41,224 nt of DNA. It comes from Bacillota bacterium. GTDB lineage: Bacteria; Bacillota; Sulfobacillia; Sulfobacillales; Sulfobacillaceae. This document shows, in pieces, positions 23,113-37,893 of this stretch; positions within the stretch are counted from its first letter, which is position 1, and each line of letters starts with the position of its first letter. The stretch is from assembly GCA_021798975.1 (NCBI GenBank), contig JAJZBJ010000009.1, positions 1 to 41,224 on the forward strand. Reading direction: 5' to 3'. Under the pieces are notes generated by a model that was not told the origin of the DNA, did no database searches, and saw only the letters and a list, made by a program, of their open reading frames with translations. A program made the position numbers and the translations under genes.

Positions 23113-23874
23113 TTAGTTTCCGAGGACATAGACCACGACGGGCTGGATACCGAAGTTGGAGACTACGTTGGAATTGTCGTTCATAAAGATGTCAACCCGC
23201 ATCCCCTGGATGGCTCCGCCGGTGTCCATGGCCTGTCCCAGGAACCCACCCTGCGGCAAGTAGCTGTCTTTGTAGCCGGTGACGTAAACGGTCGACTTCA
23301 AGGGAATCACGGACGGGTCTACGGCAATCATACCCGCCTGCAGCGGCTGACCAAAGGCGTCAGTCGGCCCGTAGGGGTAGTTGTCCGCCAAGCTGGGGCC
23401 GTAGGCGGTCGCCAACATGTGGTACACATGCAGGATCGGGTGCCCGTCGATGGTGTTGCTGCTCGGCGTCGGGGCTGCACTGCTTTGGGCGACCGCACCG
23501 TTGGTCGCGCCAGCTTGCCCCACCGGGGGCACGAGGCCGTATCCGGCCAAAATGTCTTGCCAGGTTGCCGCATCGGCAATTCCGGTGACCGGGAGGTTCT
23601 TCGCAGACTGAAAAGCCTTCACGCCAGCCTCCGTCTTAGGTCCGAAAATTCCGTCGACCGGGCCCGAATTGAATCCCAGGCCGTTGAGGTCGGCTTGCAG
23701 GGTCATTACCCAATGGCCCGTATCCGAATACTGCAACACCTGCTGCATCGCCGGATGCACGGCTGCAAGCTGGGCCGTGGTGGGAACTGCGGCCCCATTG
23801 GTACTCTGGGCAAAAGCCGGCACCGTCATGGCCATAGTTCCTATCATTGCCGCACCAATCATCCACTTTTTCAC
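23113..23874 (-). CDS. Secreted peptidoglycan-binding + 3D-domain protein
   Basis: Signal peptide; LQADLNGLGFNSGPVDGIFGPKTEAGVKAFQ; C-terminal LATAYGPS...AVDPSVIPLKSTVYVTGY...AMDTGGAIQGMRVDIFM. Confidence 0.9.
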   Translation of the reverse strand: MKKWMIGAAMIGTMAMTVPAFAQSTNGAAVPTTAQLAAVHPAMQQVLQYSDTGHWVMTLQADLNGLGFNSGPVDGIFGPKTEAGVKAFQSAKNLPVTGIADAATWQDILAGYGLVPPVGQAGATNGAVAQSSAAPTPSSNTIDGHPILHVYHMLATAYGPSLADNYPYGPTDAFGQPLQAGMIAVDPSVIPLKSTVYVTGYKDSYLPQGGFLGQAMDTGGAIQGMRVDIFMNDNSNVVSNFGIQPVVVYVLGN

Positions 23875-23893
23875 GCAAATATCCCCCTCGTAG

Positions 23894-24002
23894 TGCCTCC
23901 GAGGTTAGCTGACGGGTTCGGGACCGAGAGAGATCGCCCTAGGGCCGTGCGGCCCATTCACCCCTAACGTGGTTTCCCCGGTTCCTCTGCAGGAATTAGG
24001 CA
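23894..24002 (-). ncRNA. c-di-AMP riboswitch (ydaO/yuaA leader)
   Basis: Minus strand: TGCCTAATTCCTGCAGAGGAACCGGGGAAACC...GGGGTGAATG...AGGGCGATC...GGTCCCGAACCCGTCAGCTAACCTCGGAGGCA; matches conserved ydaO blocks, terminal TGCCT/AGGCA P1, upstream of a wall-associated gene. Confidence 0.9.
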
Positions 24003-24020
24003 ATTTTATGACACGGTCCG

Positions 24021-29834: not shown

Positions 29835-29936
29835 CGGATAAGTCCCTCCTACAGTTCCTGAATCCCATTGTACTCGTTTTGTGGGTGGAGGAGCTCGAGT
29901 GTGGGGATTTATCTGTTCAGAAAGGAATTAGGCCGC

Positions 29937-30179
29937 ATGAGCCACGCGCTAATCATCACGTATTTCGGCCTGTTGATTACAGCGGCCACGGGCGGGTTTG
30001 TATTCTTTGGATTCGCCTTGTTCGGTCCGCCAAAGCCGAAGCGCCGGGGGACGACCGTCACCATGCCGCGCCGCACCATCCCGCTCAATTGGGTGGTCCT
30101 GCACATATTTTTCGCCTGCGTCACGCTGGTCTTATTTACCTTGGCGGTCTTTGATCCCGGTGCGTTATCATCACTTTAG
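29937..30179 (+). CDS. Small hypothetical membrane protein (80 aa)
   Basis: MSHALIITYFGLLITAATGGFVFFGFALFG..., two TM segments. Confidence 0.6.
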   Translation: MSHALIITYFGLLITAATGGFVFFGFALFGPPKPKRRGTTVTMPRRTIPLNWVVLHIFFACVTLVLFTLAVFDPGALSSL

Positions 30180-30197
30180 ATTAATGGGGACATCAGC

Positions 30198-30497
30198 ATG
30201 ATATGGATTGACATCAGCTACGCTCTGTATGTAGTGACATTTCTGACAGGAATGCTGTTCTTTTTGCGGTTTGATGCCCGTCGGCGGCCGCTGCGGCGCC
30301 GGCTTATAGGCCTTCATCTGGTCATGGCGGTGGCTACCTTCATCATGATTACGTCTATCATGGCCGTCAATGCGTTTCCGCAACATGTGTCCAAGCCACC
30401 GGCGAATCCCAAACATTCCACCATGTGGGACTATGTCCGCCAGCACCAAAGTGAGTTGAAGGCGCACCACCGCAAGTACCTGTGGAAGAAGCCGTAA
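30198..30497 (+). CDS. Hypothetical membrane protein (99 aa)
   Basis: MIWIDISYALYVVTFLTGMLFFLRF..., two TM segments, co-directional cluster. Confidence 0.6.
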   Translation: MIWIDISYALYVVTFLTGMLFFLRFDARRRPLRRRLIGLHLVMAVATFIMITSIMAVNAFPQHVSKPPANPKHSTMWDYVRQHQSELKAHHRKYLWKKP

Positions 30498-30512
30498 GGG
30501 AAAGGATTGGAT

Positions 30513-31262
30513 ATGAGTCCACGTTGGCAGGAGAGTTGGGTCCAAGCGACCGCATATTGGGGAGACCACTGGCGCCAGTGGATTACCGTGGCAGCAGCCG
30601 TGACGGTGTGGTTGTGGGTTGTGTTTCTGGCCGCGCCGCAGGCGACCCCGTTTCTTCTCATGCAGTTTCAACCGATTAACGACAAGTCGGTAGTACTTCA
30701 GTACCATCAACAATTGACTGCGTTCCAAGCGCACCTGCCCGTATTGGCCATTGCGGCCGCTGTCATCGGCCTAGTGGGCTTGTTTGTGGTGTCCTCCATG
30801 CTGCGGGGGTGGCGGGGCGGACAGGTTTCGGCCGTGTTAAGCAATGCTCTCATGACCTTATTGGCCCTGGTGGCCGTGGCGGCGACGCGTGTCCCGATGT
30901 CGGGCACCGGGCATAATCCCACGGCGGAAGCAATGCGCTGGCTCTTTATCGGGGTTGTGTTCGTGGTAATTGTGCCCTGGCTGTTTTGGTATGCTCCGAC
31001 GCGAGGCCAAAGCGGGGGAGGGTTTTGGGCTCTTTTGCGGCATCATTGGCGTGATGCGCTGTTTATGCCGTGGGCCTGGCTTGCCCTGTTGGTGGTCTGC
31101 GAGCTTGTGAGCGCGTCCTTCGCCTGGACTACCACGGTTAACGACATTGGCACCTTTGTGCTGGCCGTCCTCATCGCCGCCGGCGGTCTCCTCTTTCAAT
31201 CGGTGGCCAGCTGGTATGCGGCACCGTCCGGCGGACCGGCCCAATTGAAACAGACTTCGTAG
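30513..31262 (+). CDS. Hypothetical multi-pass membrane protein
   Basis: ~250 aa with several TM segments, precedes a terminator. Confidence 0.65.
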   Translation: MSPRWQESWVQATAYWGDHWRQWITVAAAVTVWLWVVFLAAPQATPFLLMQFQPINDKSVVLQYHQQLTAFQAHLPVLAIAAAVIGLVGLFVVSSMLRGWRGGQVSAVLSNALMTLLALVAVAATRVPMSGTGHNPTAEAMRWLFIGVVFVVIVPWLFWYAPTRGQSGGGFWALLRHHWRDALFMPWAWLALLVVCELVSASFAWTTTVNDIGTFVLAVLIAAGGLLFQSVASWYAAPSGGPAQLKQTS

Positions 31263-31303: not shown

Positions 31304-31518
31304 TTCTCCCGTGAAAAGAAAAGATTTTTTGTCGCCAAAAATCTACATAACTTTGCAGGAATTTTTCTTCGTCTGTAGAAGTGTACGAGCGAGGTAGGAT
31401 GAAGCATGTATCCTGCTTCGCGCGAATACAGCCTTACTAGACCGAGTGAGCTATCAGGCAAGGGGTCTTGAAGGTTGTTTTGTGTGTGTTACGAGTCTCG
31501 CAGAAGGAGGAAGATAAA

Positions 31519-32166
31519 TTGGACAACACGCCGGAACGTGGTCAGTCGGTCCCCAGCGAAGCTCCTGAAGAAATGCGCTGGAGTCGGCGCCAATTTATCT
31601 GGGGTACCGCCGGCGCTGCCGTAGTCGGCACCGCGACCTTGTTTGGTCATGGTGTGATTGCGAATGCGGCCCGCGGTGTCTTTGGTTCTCCGGTTTCTAC
31701 CGGGCTCATTCACGTCTACCAAGAGGACTTTTATTTCGTCCCCAACTACATGACCTGGCGTGTCGGTGACAAAATGACGCTTCGGCTCCACAACATGAGC
31801 CTGACGCGTTATCACGAGATGCAGCTAGGTCGGGATGTGAGCACCGAGAATACCGTGTTTGGAACCTTAACAGCGGACGGTTTTACCAAGGACTTCTGGG
31901 AAGGGGTGCACGTTACCGCATCCAGTCCTTACCTGATTGACAACTTCGTCACCAACAAGGCCATCATGACCTTCGAGGGGCCGAAGAGCGCCTTCCAGTT
32001 GGCGACCGGCGGAGGATTTAGTCCGACGCTCAAGCCCGGGGGAAGTATCGATCTCAGTTTCACGGTTCCTGACAAGCCTGGTATTTGGCACTACGGGTGA
32101 TTTGTGCAACACGCCGCTCATTGGCGTTTCGGGATGCGTGGCATCCTCAACGTAGTGCGGGCCTAA
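31519..32166 (+). CDS. Tat-exported cupredoxin with an in-frame TGA at the type-1 Cu Cys position (32098-32100); readthrough frame ends at TAA 32164-32166
   Basis: GGAGGAAG then TTG start; SRRQFIWGTAGAAVVGTATLFGHG Tat signal; ...LSFTVPDKPGIWHYG-[TGA]-FVQHAAHWRFGMRGILNVVRA*. Confidence 0.65.
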
Positions 32167-32214: not shown

Positions 32215-33039
32215 ATGGCTAATATGGTTCTGTTTGGAGTCCTGTGGATTGTGATTTCGCTGCTCGGCGAGTGGGGAGTCACAGCTTGGATTAATTCTGC
32301 CCCTAACGGGACAGGACCATACTTTGGTTCGTTTTCGAACTTGGGCATTATCGGGGCCGGCGCCTTTGACTTCTTGCTGTGGGTCGCGGTGCCGATCTTT
32401 GTGTTCGTCGTACTGATGTTGGTCTTCGCCATGATTCGGTTCCGCGTCAAGAAGGGCGAAACGCCTGACGAGGCCAAGAACCAGAGCCGGGTGAACAAGA
32501 CTTTTATCGGTATCTGGGTGGTGGCCAGCATTCTGGTCAACATCTTGATTTGGCTGCACCCCAACGCCAGCGGTTTAGAGCAGGTGTTCGCGGCACAGAA
32601 AGTGACGGCCAAACAACATCCGCTGATTGTTGACGTGACCGCTCGTCAATGGGAATGGATTTTCAGCTATCCCCAATATGGGATCTCCCAAGCGGTGAAC
32701 TCGCAGGGTGACGACGTGCTCTACTTGCCGGTGAACCGTCCGGTTAAGTTTGTGCTCCAGTCGTTTGACCCGTTCCACACCTACGACTACCAAGTCGATG
32801 TGATTCACAGCTTCTGGATTCCCGGATTTGGCGTGAAGCAGGACGTGGTTCCGGGTGAGACCCGCACGCTGGTTCTCACACCGACTCAGATTACGTCCAC
32901 CGAAAAGAACCCCATGGTTCGTGTGCAGTGCGCCGAAGACTGCGGACCCGGTCACCCGTACATGGAGGCCAACGTCCACGTAGTGAGCGCCAGTGCGTTT
33001 GCTCAGTGGGCCAAGGCTCAAGCCGCGGGAGGGTCTTAA
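32215..33039 (+). CDS. ctaC: Cytochrome c oxidase subunit II
   Basis: CuA site QCAEDCGPGHPYM (Cx3Cx3Hx2M), HSFWIPGFGVKQDVVPG. Confidence 0.95.
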   Translation: MANMVLFGVLWIVISLLGEWGVTAWINSAPNGTGPYFGSFSNLGIIGAGAFDFLLWVAVPIFVFVVLMLVFAMIRFRVKKGETPDEAKNQSRVNKTFIGIWVVASILVNILIWLHPNASGLEQVFAAQKVTAKQHPLIVDVTARQWEWIFSYPQYGISQAVNSQGDDVLYLPVNRPVKFVLQSFDPFHTYDYQVDVIHSFWIPGFGVKQDVVPGETRTLVLTPTQITSTEKNPMVRVQCAEDCGPGHPYMEANVHVVSASAFAQWAKAQAAGGS

Positions 33040-33087: not shown

Positions 33088-34965
33088 ATGGCGCAACGCG
33101 CTTCGGTAGAGGTTAAGACCTCCACTCCCGTCGCCCCTGACCGCCGCATGATGCCTCCGGTATTGCGCGCGCTGCTGTTCGCGGCGATCGGGTTTGTAGT
33201 TCTTGATGCTCTCACCGTTTTGCTGGACTACAGCCCGCAATCCCCGTATCTCAGTCAAACGGGAGCGGTAGCAGGCTGGTTCGGAGCCTTAGTGGGCTGG
33301 CTTCTCGGGATCGGCGGCTACGAGCATATCATTAAGCCGATGCTCGGTTTCGACGACCCGGGTTACAAGCAAGTCGGCTGGCGGCGCTTTTTCCAGTTGG
33401 CTGACGACCACAAGGTCATCGGCGTTCAATATCTGGTGTTCTCGACCGGTACGTTCTTGATTGCAGGTCTCGTGGCGATGGCTATGCGCTTCCAGCTTAT
33501 GTCCTGGCAGCCGACCATCTTCCAGTACCCGCAGAGCTACCTGAACGCGGTTGGTATCCACGGTACCCTGATGATGTTTACAGTGGCGACTGTGGCGATG
33601 TTCGGCGGACTCGGGAACTACATGGTGCCGCTCATGATTGGCGCCAAGGAAACCGTGTTCTCCAAGGCCTCTGGAATTGGCGTGTGGCTGGTTCCAGTCG
33701 GTGTGTTGACCGTGGCATTCAGTCCCTTGTTGGGGGCGTGGACGACCGGATGGCGTGGATACGAGCCGTTGGCCGCTTCGGACGGCGTCGGCATGTTGTA
33801 CTACTATCTGGGCGTTTTCGCGTTGACCCTGTCCTCGTTGATTGTGGCCCTCAACTTGGTGACGACCATTCTCTTCAAGCGCACCAAGGGTTTGACCTGG
33901 AATCGGCTGCCCCTCTTCGTGTGGGGTATTTTGACGGTCTCTTTGCTGACCGTTATCTGGTTCCCGGAAATTCAGACCACCTTCTTGCTGGCCTTGACCG
34001 ACAAGATGGCCATGTTGAACATGTTTAACGGCCTCGGTCATGCGCTGGGATTCTCGGAGTTCTTCTGGCTGTTCGGTCACCCCGAGGTGTACATCGTCGT
34101 GGTGCCGGCGTTGGCCATGTGGAACGAAATTATCCCGGTCTTTACCCGCAAGTCGTTGTTCGCGCGGCCGATGGCTGTGCTGGGCTTGGTGTTCGTGATG
34201 ATGCTGAGTGGTATGGTCTGGGCTCACCACATGTTCACCAACATGCGGTACAGTGAAATGCTGCCGTTTTCCTTCTTCACGGAGATGATCTCCATTCCCA
34301 CCGGGTTTGCATACTTGGCGGCCATCGGGACCATCTGGAACTCGCGCATGCGTTTGACAACCCCGATGTTGTTGGTCTTGATGAGTATGTTCAATTTCCT
34401 CATCGGTGGTTTGACTGGATTGTTCGTCGCGGACGTACCGGCTAACCTGCAGCTGCACAACACCTTCTTCGTGGTCGGACACTTCCACTTCACCATTATT
34501 GGTGGGATGGTGTTCAGCTGGATGGCTGCTATGTACTACTGGCTGCCGAAGTTCTCGGGCCGGACCTACAACGAGTTCTGGGGCAAGTTCGGGGCCATCT
34601 GGGTATTCGTGGCCTTCAACGCGACCTTCCTGAACTTCTTCATTCTGGGTCTGCACGGCATGAACCGGTGGGTCAGCGCATATCCGAAATACCTCCAGCC
34701 GGAAAACTTCTGGACCTCCATTGCGGCCTTCTTCCTCGGTGCGGGATTTGGCATCAACCTTATCCACATCGTTTGGGCGTGGGTCAAGGGACCCAAGGTT
34801 CAGGAAAACCCCTGGCAGGCCAAGACTCTGGAGTGGCAGACATCCTCGCCGCCGCCGCGTTACAACTTCGAGGAGCTTCCGGTTGTCGTCGCTGGGTTCT
34901 ACAACTACGGCGAGGGCGCTCCGGAACCCGTGATTGTTGCAAAGCAGGCCGGTACTCAAGCTTAA
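33088..34965 (+). CDS. ctaD: Cytochrome c oxidase subunit I
   Basis: HGTLMMF, WLFGHPEVYIVVVPA, GHFHFTIIGG, many TMs. Confidence 0.97.
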   Translation: MAQRASVEVKTSTPVAPDRRMMPPVLRALLFAAIGFVVLDALTVLLDYSPQSPYLSQTGAVAGWFGALVGWLLGIGGYEHIIKPMLGFDDPGYKQVGWRRFFQLADDHKVIGVQYLVFSTGTFLIAGLVAMAMRFQLMSWQPTIFQYPQSYLNAVGIHGTLMMFTVATVAMFGGLGNYMVPLMIGAKETVFSKASGIGVWLVPVGVLTVAFSPLLGAWTTGWRGYEPLAASDGVGMLYYYLGVFALTLSSLIVALNLVTTILFKRTKGLTWNRLPLFVWGILTVSLLTVIWFPEIQTTFLLALTDKMAMLNMFNGLGHALGFSEFFWLFGHPEVYIVVVPALAMWNEIIPVFTRKSLFARPMAVLGLVFVMMLSGMVWAHHMFTNMRYSEMLPFSFFTEMISIPTGFAYLAAIGTIWNSRMRLTTPMLLVLMSMFNFLIGGLTGLFVADVPANLQLHNTFFVVGHFHFTIIGGMVFSWMAAMYYWLPKFSGRTYNEFWGKFGAIWVFVAFNATFLNFFILGLHGMNRWVSAYPKYLQPENFWTSIAAFFLGAGFGINLIHIVWAWVKGPKVQENPWQAKTLEWQTSSPPPRYNFEELPVVVAGFYNYGEGAPEPVIVAKQAGTQA

Positions 34966-34996: not shown

Positions 34997-35557
34997 ATGG
35001 CGATACAAAAGACTCGCGGCGAAATGGAAGACATGCGTGCCATTCGCACAGGTTTCGGGATATTTCTCGCCAGCCTCAGTGTGATGTTGGTCACCTTGGT
35101 TGCCGCGCGTTACCTGACAGCCGGATCGACGGTGGGTCCGTACAGCCAATGGCTGGGCGCGATTACCACGCTGTTCATGCTGATTAGCGGCTTCGCCGCC
35201 CGGTCGGCGCGAACGGCCATCGTTCGCGGCAACAATCAGGCGATGCAGAGTCGTCTCGGTCTCGGATTCTGGTTCGGCGTTCTGACGGTAGCAGCGGTTC
35301 TTCTGCAGTGGATACTGCTGAACAACCAAGGTGTTCCAGTCACACTGCCTGCCGCAGAGGTGTACTATGTACTTACGGGAATATGGATGCTTCTTGCCGT
35401 GGTCTCGGGATTTGTACTGTACGCTTCGAAGGCGCGTGGACGCCGTATTGGCGGATACACCGTGGATAACCACTGGGATGTAGACGCAGCCACGTATTTC
35501 TGGACTTGGACAGCGATGGGCTGGATTGTCCTCTACATCGTGCTGTACTTCATTTGA
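34997..35557 (+). CDS. Cytochrome c oxidase subunit III-like protein
   Basis: Position after subunit I; C-terminal VDNHWDVDAATYFWTWTAMGWIVLYIVLYFI. Confidence 0.8.
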   Translation: MAIQKTRGEMEDMRAIRTGFGIFLASLSVMLVTLVAARYLTAGSTVGPYSQWLGAITTLFMLISGFAARSARTAIVRGNNQAMQSRLGLGFWFGVLTVAAVLLQWILLNNQGVPVTLPAAEVYYVLTGIWMLLAVVSGFVLYASKARGRRIGGYTVDNHWDVDAATYFWTWTAMGWIVLYIVLYFI

Positions 35558-35898: not shown

Positions 35899-36777
35899 GT
35901 GTGTCAGCCCATGATGAAACGGGTTAACGAGACAATACGTGCGTACACAGAGCTCATGAAGCCCGGCATTGTGCTGTGGCTTCTGATTACGGCGTATTGT
36001 GCGATGGTTGTGGCCCATCACGGACTACCGCCGATCGGGCAAACAATCTTTACCCTGGTCGGGCTGGGACTGTCTGCCGGTGGCGCCCATGCGGTCAACA
36101 TGTGGTATGACCGAGACATCGACCAAATTATGAAGCGGACTCGGCGACGTCCAATCGTGACCGGCCGCGTACGGCCTCAAGATGCTCTCATTTTCGGTAT
36201 TGCCTGCGGCGTGGTGGCGTTCCTAGGAATGGGCCTTCTGGTTAACTGGCTGGCCGCAGCATCATCTTTGGCTGGATATTTATTCTATGTGTTTGTCTAC
36301 ACCATCTGGCTGAAGCGCCGTTCGGCTCAAAACATTGTCATCGGCGGAGCCGCGGGCGCGTTCCCGCCCATTGTGGGCTGGGCTGGCGCGACGGGCCACT
36401 TGGGCATTGCCCCGGGATTGATGTTTCTCTTAATCTTTATGTGGACTCCACCGCATTTTTGGGCACTGGCGCTGTACAAGCAGGATGACTACCGCAACGC
36501 CAAGATTCCCATGATGCCGATTGTCCGTGGGGCGTCGACGACCAAGGTGCAAAGTTTGGTGTATGCCGTGTTGTCGGTGGCGGTGTCGGTGATGCTGTAT
36601 TTGACCCATACGGTCAGCCAGGTGTACTTGGTAGCCGCGCTGGTGCTGGGCGTGACATTCGTCATGTACAACATTCAGCTCTTGCGGGAACCGGCGGATG
36701 AACTGCGTTGGGCCAAGCGGACGTTCCGGTTTTCCCTGATTTATATCGCAGCACTGTTTGTGGCGATGGTTGTTTGA
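35899..36777 (+). CDS. ctaB: Protoheme IX farnesyltransferase
   Basis: NMWYDRDIDQIMKRTRRRPIVTGRV, WTPPHFWALALYKQDDYRNAKIPMMPIVRG. Confidence 0.95.
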   Translation: MCQPMMKRVNETIRAYTELMKPGIVLWLLITAYCAMVVAHHGLPPIGQTIFTLVGLGLSAGGAHAVNMWYDRDIDQIMKRTRRRPIVTGRVRPQDALIFGIACGVVAFLGMGLLVNWLAAASSLAGYLFYVFVYTIWLKRRSAQNIVIGGAAGAFPPIVGWAGATGHLGIAPGLMFLLIFMWTPPHFWALALYKQDDYRNAKIPMMPIVRGASTTKVQSLVYAVLSVAVSVMLYLTHTVSQVYLVAALVLGVTFVMYNIQLLREPADELRWAKRTFRFSLIYIAALFVAMVV

Positions 36778-36854: not shown

Positions 36855-37099
36855 ATGGCCCATGAGCGGTTTTTGGGGAATTTGACGCGCAGCCCGGAAG
36901 AGGACCCGACCGGGAGACGGTGGCTTTTGTGATGGCAGCTGGTCCCTCGTCTTGGAAAAAAGAGGAGGTGGTGCTGTTCTCGACAGAAGGGGTGCGCACG
37001 GGATTGGCGGCGGCGGTGGATGGTGTCGAAGAAGCCAACTTCACCGCGGGGAGCGCCATCGAGCGGGTCTGTGAAGCGGGCGTCAGCGTTTCCTTCTAG
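36855..37099 (+). pseudogene. DsrE-like gene with apparent -1 frame discontinuity
   Basis: ATG after AAGGAGG: MAHERFLGNLTRSPEED... continues only in another frame as PDRETVAFVMAAGPSSWKKEEVVLFSTEGVRTGLAAAVDGVEEANFTAGSAIERVCEAGVSVSF*. Confidence 0.6.
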
Positions 37100-37839
37100 A
37101 GCGCGTTGAAGTATTGCACAAGCGCGTGGGATTGACTGGACGACACGGGACTTCCCGGAGGCATGCGCGAGGCGATGAATTGCTGCATATTGGCGGCCCC
37201 CATCGACGAGACCAGAGAATGGGTGAAGGGCGGGGTCGGTCCGTGGCACCGGGTGCAGGTGGTGGTATAGATTTGTTTGCCCTGCGCGACGGCCGCTGTG
37301 GTGGAAGACGGAGTACGCGTGGTGGTCGTGCCGGAGGCCGGGGGACGCGCGCTCTGCACCGCAGTGGGAGGCAGGGCTGCCACGCCCAGACCGTGGTCGT
37401 ACACCATGCTACCTCCCAGGATACCGGTGGTGGAAATCATGATCAATCCGAGAATATAGGCCGCGCTGGCATAATACCAAGGTTTTAGGGTGTCGCCAGG
37501 CCCGGCCGCGCTTAGATCACCGCTCTTTGTCCACGCGCGGTGGGCGCGCATGCGCAAGGCCACGATCGCGGCAATCACCAGGCCGGTGATAATGCCGTCG
37601 CGCCGGTGGGCACGCAGCAGCGGCCGCACACTGGGTGTGACCAATAGGTGACCGGCCGCGTAGAGTCCGGCCAGAATGGCAAAAAATACTGCGATAAGCG
37701 TCAGCCAGAGTAGGACCAGACCCGCCCGTTCAAAAAACCGGTCACGCCGCCAGACGGCAATGGCGTCAAGGAGAAACGCCGTAAACAGGAGGGCGATGGG
37801 AAAGTGCACCAGCATGGGATGTACGGTGGGTGGAATCAT
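37096..37839 (-). CDS. DUF2231-type membrane domain fused to C-terminal cytochrome c
   Basis: HPMLVHFPIALLFTAFLLD N-terminus; CTRCH haem motif and distal RMPPGS Met. Confidence 0.85.
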   Translation of the reverse strand: MIPPTVHPMLVHFPIALLFTAFLLDAIAVWRRDRFFERAGLVLLWLTLIAVFFAILAGLYAAGHLLVTPSVRPLLRAHRRDGIITGLVIAAIVALRMRAHRAWTKSGDLSAAGPGDTLKPWYYASAAYILGLIMISTTGILGGSMVYDHGLGVAALPPTAVQSARPPASGTTTTRTPSSTTAAVAQGKQIYTTTCTRCHGPTPPFTHSLVSSMGAANMQQFIASRMPPGSPVSSSQSHALVQYFNAL

Positions 37840-37893
37840 GGAGTCCCCCTTAGTCATGCCGGGAGGCGCCGCACCCCCCGGCTCGTGTTGATA

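Follow-up and report, generated by a model that had tools for sequence, protein, structure and literature searches.

AcoP of Acidithiobacillus ferrooxidans, a green cupredoxin, has been proposed to bind copper through H85 and the C-terminal set C159-x6-H166-x4-M171, and homologues in Sulfobacillus were reported within oxidase gene clusters (PMC4059628). The locus described here lies in a 41,224-nucleotide stretch of DNA from the Sulfobacillus lineage (the window), and it contains a gene of the AcoP type in which the codon for the copper-ligand Cys is replaced by an in-frame TGA. The known selenoproteome is dominated by thioredoxin-fold and anaerobic enzymes, and natural ligation of a metal by selenocysteine (Sec) occurs in nickel and molybdenum/tungsten enzymes. 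Sec has been placed at the thiolate position of a type 1 copper site in the engineered azurin Cys112Sec, which was made by protein ligation and which is, to our knowledge, the only type 1 copper site with this residue.

Results

Reading frame, fold and predicted copper ligands

The reading frame begins with TTG at 31519, preceded by the Shine-Dalgarno sequence AAGGAGG (31504-31510), reaches TGA as codon 194 (32098-32100), and continues for 21 more residues, FVQHAAHWRFGMRGILNVVRA, up to the TAA at 32164-32166 (Table 1). This is the frame that had been described in an initial sequence-only reading of the window, and the accompanying statement that the protein has no other Cys was confirmed on the read-through translation, which makes residue 194 the sole thiol or selenol position. 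At the N-terminus, the motif WSRRQF was recognized by eye as a twin-arginine (Tat) type signal or anchor; an AlphaFold2 model predicts a helix at residues 23-42, and the cupredoxin domain extends over approximately residues 61-215. With this signal and with coxB and coxA located downstream, the earlier description of a Tat-exported cupredoxin beside a haem-copper oxidase agreed with what we observed.

A family profile built from 17 homologues (A1) was compared with solved structures by hmmsearch and matched AcoP (7z3b, E=8.1e-27). The AlphaFold2 model, with a mean pLDDT of 74 and values of mostly about 90 in the cupredoxin domain, led to the same protein: the top 7 Foldseek matches were all AcoP chains (E about 1e-11), the best of them with a TM score of 0.81 over the target. 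No family for this cupredoxin was found in Pfam (E up to 0.001) or in NCBIfam 20.0 (E up to 0.1). The predicted copper ligands are H99 and U194-x6-H201-x4-M206, with a spacing identical to that of AcoP, and A1 shows no variation at any of the four positions. The claim that the TGA falls on the copper-ligand Cys is borne out by this alignment, in which it pairs with AcoP Cys159. Judged by sequence, modelled fold and ligand spacing, the window protein is an AcoP-type (green) cupredoxin for which copper binding is predicted; the sequence-only reading had proposed a blue-copper-type carrier, of which the cupredoxin assignment stands while the generic blue type is replaced by the AcoP type.

Selenium also serves thiol-type redox chemistry, and a Sec residue could in principle be inserted here for a purpose other than copper ligation, for instance redox protection or the binding of an alternative metal. 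The position concerned is, however, the protein's only thiol or selenol, it is aligned with AcoP Cys159, and the His and Met ligands around it are intact. We therefore regard such a use of Sec as improbable, and favour its role as a copper ligand.

Table 1. Positions of the cupredoxin gene, its predicted functional codons and the neighbouring genes in the window.
Feature	Position	Strand	Remarks
Three small membrane-protein genes upstream of the cupredoxin gene (29868-30179, 30198-30497, 30507-31262)	29868..31262	+	Synteny in relatives
AcoP-like cupredoxin gene with predicted Sec	31519..32166	+	215 aa when the UGA is read through
Codon for H99, predicted N-terminal Cu ligand (AcoP His85)	31813..31815	+	Invariant in A1; AcoP alignment
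UGA in frame, predicted to encode the Cu ligand Sec194	32098..32100	+	Aligns with AcoP Cys159
Candidate SECIS hairpin, ACGCC / loop GCTCATT / GGCGT	32111..32127	+	Starts 11 nt past the UGA; loop opens with G
Codons H201-W-R-F-G-M206, predicted Cu ligands His201 and Met206	32119..32136	+	Invariant in A1; AcoP H166/M171
coxB, oxidase subunit II, CuA motif CAEDCGPGHPYM	32215..33039	+	
coxA, haem-copper oxidase subunit I	33088..34965	+	
coxC-like subunit III	34997..35557	+	TGA stop
Likely ctaB (haem O synthase), of the UbiA prenyltransferase family	35899..36777	+	TGA stop

The ligand codon in relatives and the surrounding gene cluster

A TGA at the ligand codon was found in 5 species from 3 genera, with 68-97% identity: the window genome, HSP1.bin10 (97%) and Sulfobacillus harzensis DSM 109850 (83%), together with the more distant TL1-5.bin8 (70%) and FK_Sedi_B_Bin.12 (68-71%). 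Every remaining homologue examined has TGC or TGT, including orthologues from the same genera and a paralogue in the window genome itself, and among all homologues examined no codon besides these three occurs at the position. Tabulating the codon, as had been suggested together with the sequence-only reading, thus revealed a clean exchange between Sec and Cys codons. These five were also the only cases of an in-frame stop in the cupredoxin family in the related genomes searched, each of them on the ligand codon, and no other in-frame stop or frameshift was present in any cupredoxin copy examined. It had been argued from the window alone that a random nonsense mutation would be unlikely to hit this very codon, and the recurrence of the same TGA in four further genomes, with TGC or TGT elsewhere, reinforces that argument.

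On a protein tree built after the column of the ligand codon had been masked, four changes of the Sec label were required (3-4 across bootstraps), with well-supported branches forcing at least two, which indicates that Sec and Cys have been interchanged repeatedly. The 20 codons past the UGA are conserved between the Sec forms, with 1-5 amino-acid differences, and this conservation suggests that the region is translated.

The gene order of three membrane-protein genes, cupredoxin, coxB, coxA, coxC and ctaB was kept in those orthologous loci checked whose contigs reach far enough. On the minus strand beside the oxidase cluster, a gene at 37096-37857 encodes a membrane protein whose C-terminal region has a CTRCHG motif for haem binding; this gene also adjoins the cluster in HSP1.bin10 and S. 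harzensis, and its product is a possible redox partner. A second cluster, consisting of a Cys-form AcoP, coxB, coxA and coxC, is present in the window genome (L167, G000:C15:10000-20000; paralogue L002/L167); the cell would thus possess both a Sec AcoP and a Cys AcoP, each adjoining its own oxidase. Elsewhere in the window, a c-di-AMP (ydaO) riboswitch (23879-24012, minus strand, 91.4 bits) is located upstream of a gene for a secreted protein of the peptidoglycan-binding/3D-domain type (23113-23874).

Since the genome also encodes a Cys-form paralogue beside a separate oxidase cluster, the window copy could tolerate loss, and the UGA might then be a true stop that leaves a decaying or truncated copy of 193 aa with His99 as its only remaining ligand, while the paralogue does the work. 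This is difficult to reconcile with a TGA that recurs in 5 species, as distant as about 70% identity, in genes that retain their length and all downstream ligands. No copy has a further stop or a frameshift, the synteny of the cluster is preserved, and Sec machinery is present. Because five species share the codon with intact ligands, we consider gene decay very unlikely and read the UGA as a sense codon.

Selenocysteine machinery and decoding of the UGA

The genome to which the window belongs (2.89 Mb in 192 contigs, an 87% complete assembly) contains all components of the Sec system that the sequence-only reading had proposed to search for: a tRNA-Sec whose anticodon is UCA (72.2 bits), SelA (552.8 bits), SelB (339 bits, in a 642-residue open frame) and SelD (L163, G000:C15). 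The selD gene has an in-frame TGA of its own, in SGUGCK, with a clear hairpin after the UGA. In the gene for the formate dehydrogenase FdhA (L188, G000:C92), a TGA in the canonical UHAP motif is followed by a GGUCU-loop hairpin, which we take to resemble the SECIS element of E. coli fdhF. With a Sec system and Sec-type UGA genes in the same genome, a conserved pairing of UGA with Cys is expected to signify Sec insertion. The earlier proposal would have been undermined if the homologues in close strains all had TGC or TGT and the genome lacked a UGA-decoding tRNA; what we found were close homologues with TGA and a tRNA-Sec(UCA). UGA still serves as an ordinary stop as well, for example in coxC and ctaB next to the cupredoxin gene, both of which terminate with it.

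Among the other Sec-form genomes, G005, G006 and G008 have tRNA-Sec, SelA, SelB and SelD; in G028 (71% complete) SelB and SelD were present, and SelA and tRNA-Sec were not found. Nearly all relatives have Sec machinery, and its co-occurrence with the TGA is therefore not discriminating. G004, from the same genus and 91% complete, has SelA, SelB and a TGA-containing SelD; among its listed tRNA-Sec matches there was only a selC*-type tRNA with GCA and no UCA tRNA-Sec, probably owing to an assembly gap.

An alternative to Sec insertion is that a suppressor-type tRNA reads the UGA as Cys or another ordinary residue. The one other tRNA-Sec-like tRNA found in the window genome is a tRNA-Cys of the selC* type, and selC*-type tRNAs with UCA anticodons have been proposed to act as opal suppressors in other bacteria (PMC7609411). 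However, the anticodon of the selC*-type tRNA is GCA in all ten genomes inspected, and the UCA tRNA found among the tRNA-Sec matches is tRNA-Sec, accompanied by the full set of SelA, SelB and SelD. Since the selC*-type tRNA-Cys carries GCA and the UCA tRNA found is tRNA-Sec, decoding as Cys has little chance of being correct. The sequence-only reading had allowed for either Sec or Cys; decoding of the UGA was supported, and tRNA-Sec(UCA), SelA, SelB and SelD and the Sec/Cys exchange favour Sec much more than Cys. The tRNA-Sec-shaped tRNA-Cys with GCA (G000 contig C159:32600-32690; L032, L192; 57.8 bits to the tRNA-Sec model) is also found in nine relatives across the Sulfobacillus lineage and looks like the selC* class from Firmicutes and others (PMC7609411).

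The fragmented, incomplete assembly of the window genome might suggest that a sequencing or assembly error turned TGC or TGT into TGA, but this is refuted by independent assemblies with the same codon and is untenable in view of the TGA in S. harzensis DSM 109850, a cultured iron- and sulfur-oxidising acidophile with a pH optimum of 3.0 that was sequenced at 500x (PMC8489842).

A candidate SECIS element

The feature shared by bacterial SECIS elements is a small apical loop containing a G (PMC1088965), and these elements are weakly conserved (PMC12013277). A SECIS-like hairpin recurs at the same place past the UGA in 4 of the 5 Sec genes, with an altered stem in G028. The hairpin is short, and in the window genome its energy was unremarkable when compared with synonymous recodings (fraction 0.37); it stood out in the same test for HSP1.bin10 (0.002) and G028 (0.042), and one Cys orthologue was also low (0.009). 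When the 45 nt past the UGA were folded and compared with dinucleotide-shuffled sequences, none of the Sec genes reached a significant z-score. Among the closely related Sec forms, synonymous change past the UGA was reduced (p 0.034), with p 0.003 when G008 was included and 0.08 with all five, and one pair of Cys paralogues, taken as a control, showed the same reduction. Because the signal weakens with all five genes and the Cys-paralogue pair behaves alike, we did not rely on synonymous constraint. It is plausible that the candidate hairpin functions as a SECIS element.

Discussion

Altogether, our data are consistent with the view that the UGA is very likely read as Sec, yielding a Tat-exported AcoP-type cupredoxin with Sec as a predicted copper ligand. 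SelA would make Sec-tRNA(UCA) with selenophosphate supplied by SelD, SelB would bring this tRNA to the UGA at codon 194, and the ribosome would continue through the final 21 residues, among them the two remaining C-terminal ligands. In the folded protein, one copper would be held by His99, Sec194, His201 and Met206, and the exported cupredoxin would act as an electron donor for the CuA oxidase of the neighbouring genes, probably as part of the respiratory chain with which an acidophile oxidises iron or sulfur. The codon and its conservation, the Sec machinery, the homology in fold and ligands and the gene cluster are the observed parts of this scheme; selenium incorporation, copper-selenium ligation and the electron-transfer role of the cupredoxin are the parts that we infer.

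No cupredoxin is among the 119 families of prokaryotic selenoproteins that were inventoried in 2026 (PMC13188914). Term searches in a 2022 review and in a 2025 deep-Sep paper returned no cupredoxin selenoprotein, and our searches of the open-licence literature, judged by titles and abstracts, turned up no account of a natural Sec cupredoxin. Since neither the inventories nor NCBIfam contain such a cupredoxin, and natural Sec-metal ligation is familiar to us from nickel and molybdenum/tungsten enzymes alone, we place the protein among the AcoP cupredoxins, as a Sec variant that probably also represents a new selenoprotein family. We consider it quite likely that the locus encodes a natural selenium-copper electron-transfer site for the terminal oxidase of an acidophile, within an uninventoried selenoprotein family that has switched between Sec and Cys repeatedly. 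Compared with thiolates, selenolates have lower pKa values and withstand irreversible over-oxidation, and either property could perhaps help a copper ligand to function at low pH in an oxidising chain. If our reading is true, an aerobic respiratory electron carrier joins the selenoproteome, and a cultured organism would allow the role of selenium in a low-pH copper electron carrier to be tested directly, with the Cys orthologues of sister species and the cell's own Cys paralogue as the comparison.

The window protein resembles AcoP from the A. ferrooxidans iron-oxidation chain (PMC4059628; PDB 7z3b, 7z3f, 7z3g, 7z3i) in its fold, in the C/U-x6-H-x4-M spacing with an upstream His, and in the position of its gene in an oxidase gene cluster, and it differs in having a Sec codon at the position of Cys159, in belonging to the Gram-positive Sulfobacillus lineage, and in its Tat-type signal, with 28% identity between the two. 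The Cys-form AcoP homologues of Sulfobacillus and Alicyclobacillus have the family, the ligand positions and the oxidase neighbourhood in common with the window gene, and some, sited in the same gene cluster as the Sec form, are its true orthologues, but they have TGC or TGT at the ligand codon. Sec replaces Cys as a natural direct metal ligand in [NiFeSe] hydrogenases and Sec-formate dehydrogenases (PMC13188914). The window protein has its predicted Sec likewise at a Cys metal-ligand position, although those proteins are nickel or molybdenum/tungsten enzymes and the window protein is a predicted copper electron carrier. With Sec-azurin it would have in common Sec as the copper ligand at the thiolate position, and azurin shows that this chemistry is feasible; Sec-azurin is man-made, whereas the window gene is encoded in a genome.
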